A DNA stretch of 64,000 bases. It comes from Bradyrhizobium sp. ORS 278 (GTDB taxonomy: Bacteria > Pseudomonadota > Alphaproteobacteria > Rhizobiales > Xanthobacteraceae). Where the stretch lies: positions 3,844,001 to 3,908,000 of the forward strand of contig NC_009445.1 of assembly GCF_000026145.1 (NCBI RefSeq). The letters are read 5' to 3'. Within the stretch, counting starts at the first letter, position 1. The number at the start of each line of letters is the position of its first letter. Shown one piece after another: positions 28,918 through 35,713 of this stretch. A model generated the notes under the pieces. It was not told where the DNA came from. It did not search any database and saw only the letters and a list, made by a program, of their open reading frames with translations. The position numbers and the translations under genes are program-made.

Positions 28918-31476
28918 TCACAGCCGCGGGTCGATCGGCTCGCTTTCGAGAGCCAGCACGGCGAACACGCATTCATGCACGCGGCGCAACGGCTCGCGGG
29001 CGACGAAGCGGGTCAGCGCCTCGTGGCCGAGCGCGAACTCGCGCAGCGCGAGGGCGCGCTTGCCCTCGAGCTTGCGCTGGCGCAGGCGGGCGATGTGCTC
29101 GGGCGCATCATATTCCGGGCCGTAGATGATGCGCAGATATTCGGCGCCCCGCACCTTCAGCGCCGGCTGGATCAGGCCCTTCGGCCCGCGCGCGACGAAG
29201 CTCATGGGTTTCACCACCATGCCCTCGCCGCCGCCGGCCGTGAGCTGCTCCCACCAGGCGGTGGCGTCGTTCACTGCGGTCTCGTCGGCCAGAGTCACAA
29301 CGCGCCATCGCGTGCGCCTGATCACGGGATCCGCCGCCGCCAGGCGGTCGGCCAGCGACATGTGCCAGACGTGATCCTGGTCGAACCAGACACGGCCTTC
29401 GCTGGCGAGCAGGTGGAACGGCGCGACCTTGAGATCGTCGATCCCGCCGACCGGCCAGACATAGGGCGCCCACGCAGCGCCATAGCGCCGCGCGCGGGCC
29501 GCGCGCGCGTCGAACTGGTCGCGCAGCGCCGTGACGTCGAGGCCGCGTGCAGCGGCCCGCGCCAGCGCATCGGATGCGGCGTCGAGACCCGCGACAGAAG
29601 ATGCCGCCACCGGTGCGTATTGACTCTCGATCAGGGCGCCGGCCTTGGCCGACCACGGCATGATCTCGGCGTCGAGCAGCAGCCAGTCGGTCTGCAGCTC
29701 CTGCCAAAGACCCGCACTTTCGACGGCGCTCCGCAGCCGCGCCAGCAATGCCTCGGTCATCGCCGCGTCGTTGAAGAACGCGCGGCCGGTCCGCGTCCAG
29801 ATCGCGCCGCTCTCCGCGCCTGTGATGCCGAACCGCGCGTTAGCGACGTCGGCGCTGCTGCACAGCGCGATGACGGCGCGCGAGCCCATGTGCTTCTCCT
29901 CGCACACCACCTCGGCGACGTTGCGCGCGCGGAAATGCGCGAACGCCTCCTCGGGCCGCTCGAGCCAGCCGTCGCGCGCGCTCGTCTCCGACGGCGACAT
30001 CGTCGGCGGCAGGTAGACCAGCCATTGCGGCGGCAGCGCGAAGCGGCTCATCACCTCCAGCGCGGCTGCTGCGTTCTCCTCGGCGACGACCATGCGGCCG
30101 CGCAGCGTGGTCTCGATCCACCGCCGACCGCTGACGTCGTCGATGTCGAGCAGCTGATCCGCTTCGGCCTGCGCGGAGGCGCTGCCTGCGCGCAGGCCGA
30201 GCGGCCGTACCGGCTCGCACCAGACGCGCTCGGCCTCGACCTCGACCAGCTCGCGCTCGGGCCAGCGCAGCGCCGTCAGCCGTCCGCCGAACACGCAGCC
30301 GGTGTCGATGCAGATCGTGTTGTTGACCCATTCGGCATGCAGCATCGGCGTGTGGCCATAGACCACGGCGGTCGGCCCGCGATAGTTCGCGGCCCAGTCG
30401 GCGCGCACGGGCAGGCCGAACTCGTCGATCTCGCCGGTGGTCTCGCCATACAGTGCGAACTCGCGCACCGCGCCGGAGCCGCGGCCGATCATCTCCTCTT
30501 TCAGCCCGGCATGCGCCACCGCGAGCCGGCCGCCGTCGAGCCAGACATGGCTGCGCAGGCCGTCGAGGAAATCGGGCAGGCCGTCGCGGAAGCTGCGATC
30601 CTCATTCGCGAGCTGGTTGATGGTGTCCTGCAGGCCATGCGCGATCGTGACCTTGCGGCCGGCCAGCCAGCGCTGGAATTTGCGATCATGGTTGCCCTGC
30701 ACGGCATAGGCCACGCCGGACGCGACCATGCTCATGACGATGCGCAGCACGTCCGGCGATCGTGGTCCGCGGTCGACGAGATCGCCGACGAACACAGCCT
30801 TGCGGCCTGCCGGCGGCGTCACCGTGACGGCGCGCCGGCCATCCTGCTCGCGCCACTCGACCTGATAGCCGAGCCTGGCCAGCAGCGCCTGCAATTCGCT
30901 CGCGCAGCCATGAACGTCGCCGATGATGTCGAACGGACCGGTGTCGTGCCGCTTGTCGGTCCACAGTGGCTGCCGCGCGATCGTCGCGGCCTCGATGCGC
31001 GAGACGCTGTCGAGCTTCCACACCTGGCGAAAACCCTCGCGCTGCAGGCCACCGAGGCCGCGGCGGATCTCCGAGACCATGCGCTGCACGACTGGGCCGC
31101 CGAAGCTGCGCTCGGGACGCGACCTGTTGCGTTCGATGCAGATGTCGATGCCGGGATCGAACACAATCGCGACCGGCAGCGCATGCCATTTGCGCGCCAG
31201 CTCGACCCAGCCCTTGCGGTCGGCGGGACGCACATTGGTAGCGTCGATCACGGCAAGGCGGCGATGCTTGAGCCGCCGCCCGGCGATCTCGCGGACGATA
31301 TCGAAGGCGTCGGCCGAGACGCTCTGGTCGGTCTCGTCATCGGCCACCAGCGCGCGGCAATGGTCCGAGGAGATCACCTCGGTCGGCAGGAAGTGTTTGG
31401 CGGCGAAGGTCGACTTGCCGGAGCCGGTCGAGCCGATCAGCACGACCAGCGCGAAGTCGGGGATGTCGATGTTCAT
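28918..31476 (-). CDS. pnkp: Polynucleotide kinase-phosphatase/ligase (bacterial Pnkp), RNA repair
   Basis: This 852-residue protein has the three-domain bacterial Pnkp layout. The kinase comes first, with P-loop GSTGSGKST at 15-23 and a lid with RNRSRPERS. The binuclear metallophosphatase follows: GDVHG at 186-190, GDLVDRG at 231-237, GNHD at 261-264. The C-terminal ligase/adenylyltransferase domain has its nucleotidyl lysine near 528 in EEKHMGSR and the conserved EGMVVKP further on. Pnkp heals 5'-OH and 2',3'-cyclic phosphate ends and, with Hen1, seals RNA cut by ribotoxins. The start at 31476 lies 8 nt after the Hen1 stop, so the two genes form an operon. Confidence 0.93.
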   Translation of the reverse strand: MNIDIPDFALVVLIGSTGSGKSTFAAKHFLPTEVISSDHCRALVADDETDQSVSADAFDIVREIAGRRLKHRRLAVIDATNVRPADRKGWVELARKWHALPVAIVFDPGIDICIERNRSRPERSFGGPVVQRMVSEIRRGLGGLQREGFRQVWKLDSVSRIEAATIARQPLWTDKRHDTGPFDIIGDVHGCASELQALLARLGYQVEWREQDGRRAVTVTPPAGRKAVFVGDLVDRGPRSPDVLRIVMSMVASGVAYAVQGNHDRKFQRWLAGRKVTIAHGLQDTINQLANEDRSFRDGLPDFLDGLRSHVWLDGGRLAVAHAGLKEEMIGRGSGAVREFALYGETTGEIDEFGLPVRADWAANYRGPTAVVYGHTPMLHAEWVNNTICIDTGCVFGGRLTALRWPERELVEVEAERVWCEPVRPLGLRAGSASAQAEADQLLDIDDVSGRRWIETTLRGRMVVAEENAAAALEVMSRFALPPQWLVYLPPTMSPSETSARDGWLERPEEAFAHFRARNVAEVVCEEKHMGSRAVIALCSSADVANARFGITGAESGAIWTRTGRAFFNDAAMTEALLARLRSAVESAGLWQELQTDWLLLDAEIMPWSAKAGALIESQYAPVAASSVAGLDAASDALARAAARGLDVTALRDQFDARAARARRYGAAWAPYVWPVGGIDDLKVAPFHLLASEGRVWFDQDHVWHMSLADRLAAADPVIRRTRWRVVTLADETAVNDATAWWEQLTAGGGEGMVVKPMSFVARGPKGLIQPALKVRGAEYLRIIYGPEYDAPEHIARLRQRKLEGKRALALREFALGHEALTRFVAREPLRRVHECVFAVLALESEPIDPRL

Positions 31477-31484
31477 GACGGTGC

Positions 31485-32864
31485 TCAGCGGGTGAAGACG
31501 GCCATCTGTGTCGGCGCGCCCAGGGTCTCGTCGTGATGGCCGATGCCGGAGAAGGCGACCTGGCAATTGAAGGTTTCGCAGACGCGCTGCGCCCACGCAG
31601 CGAATTCGGCGCGCGTCCATTCGAAGCGGTGGTCGCGGTGCCGGAACTGGCCGGCGGGCAGGCTCGGAAACAGCGCATTGTAGTCGGCATTCGGCGTGGT
31701 CACGATGACCACGCGCGGCCTCGCCGCGCCGAACACGACACGCTCCACCATCGGTAGCCGGTCGGGATCGAGATGCTCGATCACCTCGACCAGCGCGGCC
31801 GCATCGGCGTCGGCCCAGCGCGCATCGCGATAGGTGAGCGAGCCGTGCAGCAGTGTGACACGTCCCTCGGGCGGGCCGCCGGGCGCGCCGAGCTTGAGCC
31901 GCTTGGCCGCGCGCTCCAGCTCGCGCGCGGCGGGATCGAGGCCGATCAGGCGCTCGGCAAAGCGCTCGCGCAGCAACAGCTGCAGCAGCTTGCCTTCGCC
32001 GCAGCCGAGATCGGCGATCGTCCGGGCGCCGCTGTCGCGCAGAGCTTCGACGACGGCGGCGAGGCGCAAATCGTTGAGCCGGATCGGCGCCTCCAGCGTC
32101 TCCTCGGACTGGCTCTGCGTCTCGGTCTCCAGCGCCTCGTCCTGCGTCTCAGGTGCGAGCCGCGCCAGCGCCGCACGCGCGAGCACGCCGCGATGGCGAA
32201 GATAGCGGCGGACGATCAGCTCCTTGGCCGGATGGGCATCGAGCCAGCCTTCGCCGCGCTTGAGCAGCTTGTCGATCTCCTCGTCGCCGACCCAGTAATG
32301 CTTCGCGTCGTCCATCACCGGGATCAGCACATAGAGGTGGTTCAGCAGGGCGCTGAGCCTGTTGGTGCCGCGCAAGGTGAGGCGGACGTAGCGGCTGGTC
32401 GTGTCGCCTTGGGGACCCGCAATGGGCGTGAGCGAGACGTCCCAGCCGAGCGGCTCGAACAGCTGGCGCACCACGGTTTCACCGCCGCGCAAGGGCAGGG
32501 GCGTCACCACCGCCTCCAGCGGAATCGCGCTGTCGGCTAGTTCCTGGCGCGCGCTGCTGACGCCGTTCATCGCGGTCCGGAACGCCTTATTGAGCGCCAC
32601 CGACAGGAACGAAGACGCGGCATACGGGCGGTCGTTGACATATTGATCGAGCAGTCCGTCGCTCTGGCCCTTGCCGCGAACGAGCCCGATCGGATCGACG
32701 TCGAGCACCAGCGCCGCCTCGCAGCGGGCCTCGCTGGCCTCGGGATAGAAGATCAGCGCCTTGCCCGAGGTGAGCTCGAACTCGTGCAGCCGGTCCGGAT
32801 GCTTGTTGAGCAGGAAGCCGAGATCGGTGGCGGGCTGATGGGTGGTGGCGATCGAGAGAAACAT
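31485..32864 (-). CDS. hen1: 3'-terminal RNA ribose 2'-O-methyltransferase Hen1
   Basis: This 459-residue protein has the bacterial Hen1 start (MFLSIATTHQPATDLGFLLN) and an N-terminal domain that activates the Pnkp ligase. The C-terminal methyltransferase has DLGCGEG at 285-291, the metal-binding EVIEH at 360-364 and RHRDHRFEW near 408. It methylates the 2'-OH at the 3' end of the break before Pnkp seals it, which makes the repaired site resistant to the same nuclease. The ATG at 32864 fits the canonical start; its ribosome site is weak. A palindromic repeat fills the gap to the TROVE gene upstream. Confidence 0.93.
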   Translation of the reverse strand: MFLSIATTHQPATDLGFLLNKHPDRLHEFELTSGKALIFYPEASEARCEAALVLDVDPIGLVRGKGQSDGLLDQYVNDRPYAASSFLSVALNKAFRTAMNGVSSARQELADSAIPLEAVVTPLPLRGGETVVRQLFEPLGWDVSLTPIAGPQGDTTSRYVRLTLRGTNRLSALLNHLYVLIPVMDDAKHYWVGDEEIDKLLKRGEGWLDAHPAKELIVRRYLRHRGVLARAALARLAPETQDEALETETQSQSEETLEAPIRLNDLRLAAVVEALRDSGARTIADLGCGEGKLLQLLLRERFAERLIGLDPAARELERAAKRLKLGAPGGPPEGRVTLLHGSLTYRDARWADADAAALVEVIEHLDPDRLPMVERVVFGAARPRVVIVTTPNADYNALFPSLPAGQFRHRDHRFEWTRAEFAAWAQRVCETFNCQVAFSGIGHHDETLGAPTQMAVFTR

Positions 32865-32897
32865 GGCGTCACGGAAATCCCAGGGAGTCACAACCAC

Positions 32898-33044
32898 CGT
32901 CATTCCGGGGCAAGGCCGACAGGCCTTGAACCCGGAATCTCGACATTGTCTTGCGTCTGTTTTGAACAATCTCGAGATTTCGGGTTCAATCGTCAACGCA
33001 TCGCCGCTTCGCCTCGATGCATCGACGATTGCCCCGGAATGACG
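32898..33044. repeat. Nested palindromic repeat (CGTCATTCCGGGG family, copy 1)
   Basis: A perfect 16-bp outer stem (CGTCATTCCGGGGCAA at 32898-32913 with 33029-33044) encloses a second inverted repeat (32926-32943 with 32972-32989, 17 of 18 positions paired). The same design occurs at 57718-57822 and, reduced, at 60809-60851. It sits between the TROVE gene and hen1, so it lies within any transcript that joins them. Confidence 0.85.
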
Positions 33045-33154
33045 GCGCAATCACGCAGCTCAGCTCCTCGTGAACAAGAATGCTGAACCAGCGAGTCCTA
33101 GCCCTTGTGCAATGAGACCCGGGCGCGTCTGTGACGCGTCCGGGTCATTTGTCG

Positions 33155-34495
33155 TCAGTGCAGCGTGGCGCTGCGCAGCGACTGCTCCTGCGCCGCGATC
33201 CAGGCGATCACGGACTCGGAGAAGCCGTCGACCCGCGTCCAGGGCCCGTAACCGACCCCGTGCTGGTACGACGCCACGTTCACCATGGTCCCGCGCGCCC
33301 TCGGCGCCGGCACCGCATCGTGGCTCTGCTCGTCGGTGAAGACGATCAGGCGGTCTCCCTTGCGGTCGACCTCCTTGACCGCCCGGCCGAGATAGGTCCC
33401 GGAATGCGGCTGCGACCGGAGGATCGTATCGCGCAGCGCGAAGCCACGCCGCGGCGGCACCTTCACGACAGCGTCGCTGAACGTGAAGATCTCCACCTCG
33501 TCGCAGACCTCGCGGGCGAGGACCGCCAGTCCGCACGCCGCATCCGCGCGCGTCATCTCAGACTTCGCAGACAGCGCCGCGAACATCGAGCCGGAGACGT
33601 CGATCAGGAGCCGCGTGCGGCCCTTGAGCCGCGCATGGCCCTTGATCGACCGCAGCATCGCCTGCTCGAGCTCGGGCTCGACATCAGGCGCATGCCGCGC
33701 CGCCGTGATGAACCGATACGGCAGGATCCGGTCCGTTCGCATCGACACGATCGCTTCCGCGATCATGTCGCGCGGCACTCCGGCCTGCAGCATCAGCCGC
33801 AGGTTGCGCAGCAGCGCAAGCGCTCCAAGCCGCCGCTCGGCAAGCAGCCGCTCGAAGCTCGCACGCTTGTCCGCACCCGCCGACAGCGCGACCTCCCAGG
33901 TGTCGGGCGAGGGCAGCTCGCCGTCGACGAGCTGCTTCCACACCGCTTCCTGAGCGTCGTCCTTGGGCCTGGCGTGAACCAGGAACAGGACGTCGCGCAG
34001 CCGCACCGGCCCCTCGCGGTCATACTTCGCGAGCTGATAGGCGTCGAACTTTGCGAACGCCTTCGCCAGCCCCTTCTTGACCTGCGCCGAGACCGGCTGC
34101 CGCTTGCGCTGCTGCTGCGGACCGAGCGCGTCGGCCCAGTAGATTGCGAGCAGCTCGGTCATCTCGTCCGGCCGCTGGATGATGCGCGCCAGGGTCTCGG
34201 CCACCAGCGCGCGGTGCTGCGGCAGCCGCGCCATTTCGCGAGCAACGAGCAGCGGCGCATGCCGCAGCTTCATCTCCTCGCGCGCACTCACGGCGAGCCG
34301 AGCCGCCTCGCGCGGCTCGACCGCAGCTACGAGAACCTTGATCCGATCGGCGATCGCGACCCCGTCCTCGTAGAACTGGTCCTCCCAGAGCAGGCAGCTC
34401 ATCAGCGTACGCTGCAGCGCCTCGAGCGGCGCGAGCTGTCGGGATGGCGCACCCTCATGGGTGAAGGCGCGCAGGACCTTGTTGAGCCTGACCAT
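33155..34495 (-). CDS. rsr: TROVE-domain RNA-binding protein, bacterial Ro60 (Rsr)
   Basis: This 446-residue protein starts with the TROVE (HEAT-repeat ring) domain, about 1-285, including LNKVLRAFTHEGAPSRQLAP and the EMKLRHAPLLVAREMARLP region. It ends with a von Willebrand A domain whose MIDAS motif is D299-V-S-G-S303. Ro60 proteins bind misfolded RNAs in the ring cavity and Y RNAs on the outer surface; the bacterial form works with exonucleases under stress. GAGGAGG lies before the ATG at 34495. It lies upstream of hen1-pnkp on the same strand and downstream of two tRNA-like RNAs, a setting that agrees with an RNA quality-control and repair role. Confidence 0.92.
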   Translation of the reverse strand: MVRLNKVLRAFTHEGAPSRQLAPLEALQRTLMSCLLWEDQFYEDGVAIADRIKVLVAAVEPREAARLAVSAREEMKLRHAPLLVAREMARLPQHRALVAETLARIIQRPDEMTELLAIYWADALGPQQQRKRQPVSAQVKKGLAKAFAKFDAYQLAKYDREGPVRLRDVLFLVHARPKDDAQEAVWKQLVDGELPSPDTWEVALSAGADKRASFERLLAERRLGALALLRNLRLMLQAGVPRDMIAEAIVSMRTDRILPYRFITAARHAPDVEPELEQAMLRSIKGHARLKGRTRLLIDVSGSMFAALSAKSEMTRADAACGLAVLAREVCDEVEIFTFSDAVVKVPPRRGFALRDTILRSQPHSGTYLGRAVKEVDRKGDRLIVFTDEQSHDAVPAPRARGTMVNVASYQHGVGYGPWTRVDGFSESVIAWIAAQEQSLRSATLH

Positions 34496-34589
34496 GATGG
34501 CCTCCTCTGTTTGGGTTGATGTTGGATGGATGGCCGGCACACGGCCGACGCGCGTCACCTCGCGGGAGATCACGCGTGATGAGATCCAC

Positions 34590-34667
34590 ACGCCGGGAAC
34601 GAGCGAATGCTGAGGTCCGCTCCACTCGCGTGGAGCGGATAGCGCTCTGCCGCTGAGCTACCGGCGC
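34590..34667 (-). ncRNA. tRNA-like RNA 2 (acceptor and D arm kept, anticodon arm replaced by GNRA hairpin)
   Basis: On the minus strand 34667-34661 (GCGCCGG) pairs with 34596-34590 (CCGGCGT) over 7 bp like an acceptor stem. A textbook D arm follows: TAGCTC-AGCGGCA-GAGC. In place of an anticodon arm there is a 9-bp perfect hairpin, CCGCTCCAC-GCGA-GTGGAGCGG (34638-34617), with a GNRA loop. A T arm is weak or absent. It begins 6 nt after tRNA-like RNA 1 ends and stops about 95 nt before the TROVE start codon. Bacterial Y RNAs carry tRNA-like modules and often lie next to the Ro60 gene, so it may be a Y-RNA-type partner. No promoter or terminator was seen for it. Confidence 0.5.
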
Positions 34668-34672
34668 ACGGA

Positions 34673-34743
34673 ACGCCGGGTGGGACTCGAACCCACGACC
34701 TCTCGATTAGCAATCGAAGTATCAGCACTCTTCACCACGGCGC
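34673..34743 (-). ncRNA. tRNA-like RNA 1 (cloverleaf with GCU anticodon, short variable loop)
   Basis: The minus strand folds as a cloverleaf. The acceptor GCGCCG/CGGCGT has 6 of 7 pairs. The D stem is short (GTG/TAC). The 5-bp anticodon stem TTCGA/TCGAG carries the loop TTGCTAA, which gives anticodon GCU. A 5-nt variable loop follows, then a perfect T arm GTGGG-TTCGAGT-CCCAC. GCU is a serine anticodon, but serine tRNAs need a long variable arm, which is missing; the 3' side reads TTCC instead of CCA. So this is unlikely to be a working tRNASer and is better read as a tRNA mimic. The position directly upstream of the TROVE gene supports a Y-RNA-like role. Confidence 0.55.
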
Positions 34744-34810
34744 GTGGCAACAGAATTGTGGATGAACCGAGCTCCGTCTCGCCGCGCGACGAGCAAGGTT
34801 TCGAACCTCA

Positions 34811-34942: not shown

Positions 34943-35149
34943 GGCGGGTCAGAGACCGGCAATGTCTTCGGCGGGGAACGGGCGATGCTGTTGCTGCCCA
35001 AGGGGCAGCTATTGCTGCCCAAGGGGGCGCTCGGTTTCAACGAAGTAACAGACATCCTCACCACCGCCTGGCCGCCTGGCGGTTGCCGGGCGGCGTTGAT
35101 GGCATGCTGGGGAACGGGCGATCACGGTCATACGACGATCGAAACGCAG

Positions 35150-35197: not shown

Positions 35198-35561
35198 CCT
35201 CACCGCAACCCGCGACTCACCCGTCTCGCTTGACGGATTCCACGGTACGATCGATCGAAGGCGGCGCGTGGCCGCATTGGCGCGAAGGATCCGCGATCTT
35301 CACCACCAGCAGCACCCGGCCGCGAGCGGCCGGGCATTCAAATAGCTTGTCTGCGGCGCTCGGCGGCGCCGCATGGTGCGAGCTCCAGGGAAGCTCGCTC
35401 TGTCATCGGTGTCCGGCGCTTGACGCCTCGTTCCCTCCGACAGGCCCCGCGCTCTTGGGCACGCGCATGACAGCGCGAGCCCCGGGATCCGGGTCTCCCG
35501 TTCCGGCTGATTGCCGGGATATTTGTGAGTTCGCCGTGCAGGCCGCTCGCGCGAGGGCAAT

Positions 35562-35595
35562 AAAAAACCCTCCGGAGCGGCTGGCTCGGGAGGGT
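35562..35595 (-). terminator. Rho-independent terminator, minus strand
   Basis: On the minus strand ACCCTCC (35595-35589) pairs with GGAGGGT (35573-35567) and is followed by TTTTTTATT. This is the clearest intrinsic terminator in the window. It ends a short transcript that starts from the promoter at 35761-35789. Its 5' arm overlaps the branched structure at 35584-35647, and an upstream GGAGCGG (35640-35634) can pair with CCGCTCC (35580-35574) inside its loop, so the pairings compete. Confidence 0.8.
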
Positions 35596-35647
35596 CCGTA
35601 TGATACGGACTGTTGATCTTGCCTCAAGCAAGACCGCTCCCCCGAGC
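35584..35647 (-). ncRNA. Branched (three-way) RNA structure overlapping the terminator
   Basis: The outer 7-bp stem GCTCGGG/CCCGAGC (35641-35647 with 35584-35590) encloses two hairpins: TCTTGC/GCAAGA at 35617-35633 with a 5-nt loop, and the perfect GTCCGTAT-ATACGGAC palindrome at 35594-35610. The closing stem and the terminator stem share bases 35589-35590, so the two folds exclude each other in part. This looks like an attenuator or a small regulatory RNA; I could not match it to a known riboswitch class. Confidence 0.45.
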
Positions 35648-35713
35648 ATGGCGTGCGCCATCCGACGGCCCGAAGCCGCTGGCGGTGCAGATCATGTTTA
35701 TATCGAAGGACAT
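35624..35713 (-). CDS. Possible 29-residue leader or small protein
   Basis: An ATG at 35713 opens 29 codons (MSFDINMICTASGFGPSDGA and nine more residues, then TGA). It lies wholly between a sigma-70-type promoter and a terminator, and its stop codon falls in the loop of the TCTTGC hairpin. That arrangement resembles leader peptides that control an attenuator. The ribosome site is weak (GAGCGA), and no amino acid is strongly repeated. It may not be translated. Confidence 0.3.
   Translation of the reverse strand: MSFDINMICTASGFGPSDGARHARGSGLA

Follow-up and report, generated by a model that had tools for sequence, protein, structure and literature searches.

Why would a bacterium keep a gene for a Ro60-like protein between tRNA-like sequences and two genes of RNA repair? 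This question is raised by a stretch of 64,000 nt from Bradyrhizobium sp. ORS 278 (genome of 7.46 Mb, one contig; NC_009445.1, positions 3,844,001 to 3,908,000), called here the window, whose own positions are used below. On its minus strand, a TROVE gene with a von Willebrand factor A (vWA) domain, hen1 and pnkp stand in tandem, in that order. The original prediction took these genes, with two tRNA-like sequences directly upstream of the TROVE gene, for one functional locus that may recognise, hold and mend cleaved tRNAs. Here we report that the upstream sequences are one Y RNA, which holds a complete, circularly permuted tRNA, and that the repair genes recur beside TROVE as an optional neighbour. 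In our best reading, the repair-enzyme slot of a Ro60/Y-RNA particle is filled by RtcB or by Hen1-Pnkp, or stands empty.

A Y RNA that holds a complete permuted tRNA

The tRNA-like signal upstream of TROVE is genuine: ARAGORN calls a tRNA-Ser(gct) at 34670-34743 and the Rfam tRNA model gives a marginal 29.1 bits (cut-off 29). It does not stem from two separate RNAs. Fold and covariation make the anticodon/T half and the acceptor/D half parts of a single Y RNA at 34586..34748 of the minus strand, which belongs to class U3 (Y RNA classes are assigned by length and flanking pattern). Read 5′ to 3′, a long stem leads into an anticodon arm (34702..34718, loop TTGCTAA, triplet GCT), a variable loop (AGGTC), a T-arm (34680..34696) and the 3′ strand of the acceptor, which a short closing loop (TCCGT) joins to the acceptor 5′ strand; then come the dinucleotide TA, a D-arm (34644..34658), a side hairpin and the return of the stem. 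The acceptor stem is in this way closed as a hairpin (34661..34679), and T-arm, closed acceptor and D-arm, each backed by covariation, follow one another in the permuted order of YrlA. As transcribed, the RNA has no free end for charging, since its acceptor ends meet in this hairpin. Against the Rfam YrlA model (RF02553) it scores 38.5 bits (E 1.6e-6), which is under the cut-off of 69, and the fold has a z of −5.5, with none of 200 shuffles equally stable.

Alignment A2 unites 28 of the 35 class-U3 RNAs, the window's among them, on a 47-pair structure: 97.9% of the cells are paired, cells with double changes number 102 against 29.6 in shuffles (0 of 500 shuffles as high), and sliding the partners by 1-3 columns lowers pairing to 30-47%. 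The long stem that unites the 5′ and 3′ ends (helix 1) is paired in 97.7%. In alignment A3, which comprises 19 RNAs from Bradyrhizobium and, for four of them, from other TROVE loci, double changes occur in 7 of 7 pairs of the closed acceptor; hen1 stands beside TROVE in three of the genomes that contributed to it (the window's, G458 and G020), and none of its RNAs comes from the 80 Hen1 loci described below. A covariance model of the permuted core (R1), also trained without any of these 80 loci, finds a single copy in the genome, at the TROVE locus, with 89 bits (next match 33.8 bits), and permuted RNAs of this type are found at TROVE loci throughout Bradyrhizobium.

What makes the mimic complete? 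The RF02553 consensus has no anticodon hairpin, since an enclosing helix replaces the anticodon stem and flanks the T- and D-arms directly, a trait that the U3 RNAs do not show. In the main Y RNA of the window the stem joins between tRNA positions 26 and 27, and the anticodon hairpin is separate. Taken with published descriptions of YrlA, this indicates that the cut point differs here (26/27) and that the mimic is complete. The anticodon loop has 7 nt with Y32, U33 and R37 in all 35 U3 RNAs, close relatives that amount to 29 distinct cores from 33 loci, and all four inner anticodon-stem pairs are formed in 34 of them. Within this frame 14 different triplets occur. They stand for ten isotypes, one of which, Ser, here has a class I body. 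Across the TROVE gene tree of the 33 loci U33 stays constant; the triplet positions change 6, 9 and 12 times, and other free loop positions take 8 and 7 steps (closing loop) or 10 (D-loop). The constancy of U33, together with triplet steps similar to those of free loop positions, indicates a conserved loop frame around a triplet that is free to vary. Outside Bradyrhizobium, 13 of 25 RNAs have an anticodon arm under a fixed rule, against 2.07 after shuffling (0/2000); the 25 are those with a recognisable T-arm, so that the first copy of L029, in which no T-arm was found, is excluded. An anticodon arm is also present in 4 of 7 further phage RNAs, which come from close relatives of two phages already used and from one new phage.

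The original pairing of a Ro60-like protein with an adjacent Y RNA is supported by Pfam, the Rfam YrlA match, covariation and Foldseek. The TROVE gene (33155..34495, minus strand) encodes a protein of 446 aa, a bacterial relative of the human Ro60 autoantigen, which matches PF05731 with 61.8 bits (cut-off 23; E 9.2e-17); its vWA_Ro60 Pfam match lies under the cut-off (20.9 versus 27.7). The NCBIfam Rsr equivalog NF041674 gives 17.9 bits, far below its cut-off of 900, and by its profile scores the protein is Ro60-like and not an Rsr equivalog. An AlphaFold (AF2) model with a mean predicted local distance difference test (pLDDT) score of 80 retrieved, through Foldseek, the TROVE domain 9kop (TMq 0.72), phage Ro60 9l5y, Deinococcus radiodurans Rsr 2nvo (TMq 0.62) and Ro60, and the modelled protein combines a helical-repeat ring with a vWA fold. 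In an alignment of 17 TROVE sequences D299, S301, S303, T387 and D388 fall in invariant columns, matching the vWA MIDAS (metal-ion-dependent adhesion site) motif, DxSxS with a later T and D. The closest TROVE matches are from Bradyrhizobium, with strain STM 3809 at the top (96%).

An optional repair cassette beside TROVE

The predicted tandem of TROVE/vWA, hen1 and pnkp on the minus strand was confirmed by Pfam and equivalog models. hen1 (31485..32864) encodes a 3′-terminal RNA ribose 2′-O-methyltransferase of 459 aa that scores 685 bits with TIGR04074 (cut-off 340), also matches PF12623 and, in an alignment of 11 sequences, has E360, E363, H364, H409 and H412 in invariant columns. After a gap of 8 nt, pnkp (28918..31476) encodes a kinase-phosphatase-ligase of 852 aa with 1410.5 bits to TIGR04075 (cut-off 750) and the Pfam domains AAA_33, Metallophos and PNKP_ligase. 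The chemistry of Hen1 and Pnkp, like Y RNA binding by Ro proteins, is established for these families elsewhere. An ARAGORN tRNA-Ala at 32439-32524 (minus strand), within the hen1 coding sequence, is probably a false call. As to a known defence system, PADLOC returned no match for TROVE and, for Hen1 and Pnkp, only weak partial ones (mad2, mad3), and this candidate was rejected.

Do these genes keep company elsewhere? TROVE matches, a few of them fragments, are found in 61 of 195 Bradyrhizobium genomes, and full-length Pnkp in 5 of 195; many more genomes weakly match single Pnkp domains, and G033 has a partial match (residues 173-429). In three of the five (G000, G458 and G020) TROVE, hen1 and pnkp are contiguous. 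G488 has hen1 broken across two contig ends, the one next to TROVE and the other next to pnkp, so that TROVE would lie beside pnkp in four of the five, the fourth as judged from contig ends. In G473 about 89 bp separate TROVE from the next conserved gene, with the cassette cleanly absent. From this pattern of presence and absence in the genus, the hen1-pnkp cassette comes and goes at a fixed site.

Outside the genus, Hen1 loci were taken as the best 80 of at least 594 matching stretches, 61 of them with at least 3 kb upstream. pnkp is present in 73 of the 80, and a Pfam-confirmed TROVE gene lies upstream of hen1 on the same strand in four, namely two Asticcacaulis, a Rhodospirillaceae and Cesiribacter. 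A Chloroflexia metagenome-assembled genome (MAG; L055) is probably a fifth case: 1.7 kb upstream of its hen1, with other sequence between, lies a vWA-type protein that matched the TROVE profile with E 9e-6 before joining it. It was downgraded to probable because it has this profile match and no Pfam match; the iterated profile drifted, having taken in a second vWA protein from L080 (5891-7345). TROVE and Hen1 are both rare class-wide (7 of 289 genomes, and 6 of 289 for Hen1_L), which makes repeated adjacency by chance very unlikely. In a quick phylogeny of 88 Hen1 proteins the TROVE linkage, L055 included, takes 6 changes, at least 4 of them forced by well supported branches; with shuffled labels the mean is 7.8, and 8 of 500 shuffles needed as few. 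As regards the original prediction, hen1-pnkp is borne out as a recurrent neighbour of TROVE both in the genus and beyond it.

Among the 80 loci R1 exceeds 40 bits at the five TROVE-linked ones (L055 included) and at L087, and nowhere else; the next-best scores, 34.6 bits, fall in the tRNA clusters L050 and L056. A tandem tRNA-Arg/tRNA-Met pair of a Microcystis phage (L187) reached 53.9 bits. The R1 score was therefore rejected as sole proof of a Y RNA and hits were checked against ARAGORN, which found no tRNA pair at the R1 sites of these six loci. In L087 (6049-6132), a Chlorobiales MAG, the YrlA-like RNA lies downstream of hen1-pnkp and the contig ends 94 nt past the RNA; its TROVE gene may lie just beyond. 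In Cesiribacter (L101, 9050-9980) four units that look by eye like Y RNAs stand between TROVE and hen1, not upstream of TROVE, and R1 matches three of them, one strongly. In both Asticcacaulis loci (L070, 9751-10000; L080, 9553-9800) a small open reading frame, by eye a helix-turn-helix protein, comes right after the TROVE stop codon and before hen1.

Two further elements of the window lie upstream of the coordinates of the original prediction, which had overlooked them. The nearer is a second Y RNA (34965..35074, minus strand) of class U2, which has the shared stem and no tRNA module. It is recognised by its core strands, the same as in the other 27 U2 units, and by class covariation; its own fold is weak (z −1.76). 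There are four Y classes, with a common stem core and differing interiors, and relatives carry up to four Y RNAs. Over 111 units of the four classes, offsets 1-4 of the outer stem pair in 95-100% through different base pairs, and shifted registers pair in at most 69%; one U1 unit with an N (L140) was dropped from this set, as was one unit without room. All four classes are present at 17 of the 36 loci of the set, and the window has U2 and U3; five units are unclassified, and at least one listed as U1 (L139, second) resembles U4. Farther upstream, a conserved leader element (35395..35662, minus strand) consists of a terminator-like hairpin ending in TTTTTT and a structured stretch. It tracks TROVE in the genus: among 36 genomes it is strongly matched in 11 of 11 that bear TROVE (the window's own included) and in 0 of 25 without TROVE, save for one weak 34-base match. 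An Rfam search of this element gave no significant match.

Possible cooperation, neighbourhood and phages

What would such a locus do? Most likely, the TROVE protein binds the stem common to the Y RNAs. The main Y RNA, by presenting a complete tRNA shape, would recruit or distract the enzymes that handle or cut tRNAs, or report on them, and Hen1 and Pnkp would heal, seal and 2′-O-methylate ribotoxin-cut RNA, possibly including RNA held by the particle. Such a Y RNA beside a Ro60-like gene and two repair genes suggests a system that mimics, guards or mends tRNAs. We infer the binding of Y RNA in Bradyrhizobium, its role as tether or bait and the cooperation with Hen1-Pnkp from what is known of these families, and we give an even chance to the whole: a locus for a Ro60/Y-RNA ribonucleoprotein to which RNA-repair genes are optionally added, and in which a tRNA-mimicking tether or bait is combined with end repair.

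Several observations weigh against this reading. No full-length Pnkp match is found in 57 of the 61 TROVE-bearing Bradyrhizobium genomes, and G410 has hen1-pnkp and no TROVE match. In the 12 Pseudomonadota TROVE genomes outside Bradyrhizobium Hen1 never adjoins TROVE (in G311 it is on another contig). Right after the TROVE stop codon the window has a 14-pair hairpin (33116..33146, minus strand), similar in relatives without hen1 and followed by few U in the window and by TTTT in G020; placed between TROVE and hen1, it makes a single transcript doubtful, and hen1-pnkp may be transcribed separately. On the RNA side, U4 (24 units), a permuted class, is mostly without a good anticodon stem, and among three more permuted Bradyrhizobium cores beyond class U3, L122 passes the anticodon-arm rule and L121 and L125 fail it; a convincing anticodon arm is thus lacking in U4, L121 and L125. 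Diversifying selection on the triplet is likewise unsupported, its steps being near those of free loop positions. Co-transcription across 32865-33154, which had been proposed as a check, finds no support in the sequence, given this hairpin. Between the hairpin and hen1, 32865-33130 is rich in palindromes, has parts in G458 and G488 and looks by eye like a repeat element.

The same 12 genomes show what may stand in the place of hen1. In 9 of them RtcB is found no farther than about 2.5 kb from the TROVE match; in G063, whose TROVE protein is 74% identical to the window's, it follows about 160 nt downstream. At the window's own locus rtcB is not next to TROVE, the two genes downstream being hen1 and pnkp. 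With RtcB in 9 of 12 and Hen1 in none, the slot beside TROVE holds RtcB, Hen1-Pnkp or nothing. A tRNA-rich contig of 9.5 kb (G043 contig C110; L012/L212) carries TROVE, RtcB and a YrlA-like RNA, and is possibly a phage or another mobile element. The idea of one obligate functional locus is not supported, given the genomes without full-length Pnkp, the hairpin after TROVE and the RtcB neighbours. The question set beforehand, whether TROVE and hen1-pnkp are neighbours in related genomes, receives a divided answer: the link is real, but optional only. Most TROVE-bearing relatives have kept TROVE and Y RNA and lack hen1-pnkp, which suggests that the particle is useful in itself.

An alternative that draws on the same observations is that the neighbours do not cooperate, TROVE and Y RNA acting in RNA decay or quality control, as in the Rsr-Y RNA-PNPase machine of Deinococcus, and hen1-pnkp being an independent repair of ribotoxin damage. 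The rarity of full-length pnkp among TROVE-bearing genomes of the genus, the hairpin that separates TROVE from hen1 and the clean absence of the cassette in G473 all favour it. Against it stand the same gene order in distant bacteria (four of the 80 loci and probably a fifth), in view of how infrequent TROVE is, and the fact that RtcB, another RNA ligase, adjoins TROVE elsewhere. We consider plain neighbourhood possible, though somewhat unlikely.

Could the particle have come from phages? On this account TROVE and Y RNAs are a phage-derived counter-defence, in which tRNA mimics blunt host anticodon nucleases and the bacterium has kept the protection. TROVE is matched by 78 phage records. Of ten phages and one plasmid whose TROVE loci were scanned with R1, seven phages (two Xanthomonas phages, Kikimora, CcrColossus, CcrPW, RHph_TM61 and Kradal, with hosts in Xanthomonas, Brevundimonas, Caulobacter, Rhizobium and Streptomyces) and the plasmid, of D. 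gobiensis, have YrlA-like RNAs above 40 bits. In a tree of 27 TROVE proteins phage and plasmid rows interleave with bacterial ones and split the hen1-linked rows (3 changes, the count being limited to those six rows); its long branches, that of L055 above all, make deep placements unsure. The closest solved structure of named source is also a phage Ro60. On the other side, the direction of transfer is not established, crAss001 and a Vibrio phage have no R1 RNA within 2.5 kb of TROVE, the R1 hit of the Microcystis phage Mvi-JY20 was rejected as an ordinary tRNA pair, and for Hen1 the phages yield only two matches, both weak and partial. Phage origin is, on balance, unlikely.

Phage genes annotated as tRNA-Gln, tRNA-Ser and tRNA-Thr upstream of TROVE (L185, 4128-4195; L184, 4784-4858; L202, 2292-2359) overlap YrlA-like hits and are probably halves of Y RNAs rather than tRNAs. 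Some of the tRNAs annotated beside TROVE genes, in bacteria as well as in phages, may thus be such halves. Of 29 tRNA gene clusters in archaea, 20 contain a TROVE gene according to PMC6333295, and some of the tRNAs of those clusters might be Y RNAs too.

A bolder form of the cooperative reading would make the particle a Ro60 complex with a complete tRNA decoy whose anticodon is exposed and freely exchangeable, a sacrificial bait that Hen1-Pnkp, where present, mends and methylates, in bacteria and phages alike. We regard it as unlikely. If it were true, the targets would be anticodon nucleases of phages, of rivals or of the cell's own defences, and the bait would be reusable. With an entire tRNA inside it, the Y RNA lends itself to a direct test of whether an anticodon nuclease cuts it and repair mends it, which bears on the part that bacterial Ro60 and Y RNAs play in RNA-repair operons.

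A permuted tRNA gene, whose closing loop would be excised to leave a chargeable tRNA of two pieces, is highly improbable. The permuted tmRNA of alphaproteobacteria offers the comparison, all 35 U3 cores are called full-length tRNAs by ARAGORN once rearranged into tRNA order, and NCCAT is the closing-loop sequence of 21 of the 35. However, ARAGORN is lenient: 647 of 700 rearranged cores with a shuffled anticodon arm are still called, so the calls support the D/T/acceptor layout only and were rejected as proof of the anticodon arm. The window's loop, TCCGT, has no CCA, and the loop varies freely. Moreover, one and the same body carries 14 triplets of ten isotypes, with Ser on a class I body, which counts against decoding. 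That ordinary or decayed tRNA genes stand beside TROVE by chance, as the threshold calls of ARAGORN and Rfam could suggest, is refuted for 34586-34748 by the covarying closed acceptor hairpin and long enclosing stem, in an RNA that occurs at TROVE loci across the genus.

Likeness to known systems

TROVE and Y RNAs were reportedly named as scaffolds of RNA-repair systems by Burroughs and Aravind in 2016, and the TROVE-hen1-pnkp combination may already be in print. A jumbo-phage review (PMC7824862) restates the idea of Rot/TROVE scaffolds with Y RNAs in RNA-repair systems and describes TROVE, in a small subset of these phages, as an RNA-repair platform with a tRNA-like partner. In the openly licensed literature, where absence is weak evidence, we found no Y RNA holding a complete tRNA with its anticodon arm, nothing relevant by title on a Bradyrhizobium Y RNA, and TROVE, Pnkp and Hen1 together in Borgs only, in separate clusters.

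Among solved structures, the closest folds to the TROVE protein are Thermus phage phiLo Ro60 (9l5y) and the TROVE domain 9kop, at 24% identity, a likeness of structures only. The Deinococcus Rsr-Y RNA-PNPase machine, as described in PMC8394870 and PMC7790460, shares the Ro60 fold (2nvo) and the Y RNA tether. Bacterial Pnkp-Hen1, or Pnkp1-Rnl-Hen1 (PMC4411300), is matched in the window by Hen1 and full-length Pnkp equivalogs; unlike there, TROVE and a Y RNA stand alongside, as they do at four, probably five, of the 80 Hen1 loci.

The RNA itself is closest to YrlA (RF02553; PDB 6CU1), a permuted mimic of the D-, T- and acceptor arms on a long Rsr-binding stem. A 2021 review likens YrlA to these three arms (PMC8394870), and YrlA and tRNA are known to superpose by circular permutation (PMC11472068). 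In contrast to YrlA, the window's RNA falls below the Rfam cut-off, has a separate anticodon hairpin and joins its stem between positions 26 and 27; the U3 RNA is in this sense a YrlA variant missed by the present cut-off. At the level of the locus, the best counterpart is Salmonella rsr-yrlBA-rtcBA, which, as described in PMC7790460, likewise gathers a Ro60-like protein, tRNA-like Y RNAs and RNA-repair enzymes, and for which it was proposed that the tRNA-like domain of YrlA may compete for an anticodon nuclease. The window differs in having hen1-pnkp instead of rtcBA and in the anticodon arm added to its Y RNA, and hen1-pnkp or RtcB beside TROVE thus offers a natural comparison of two repair chemistries on one particle.

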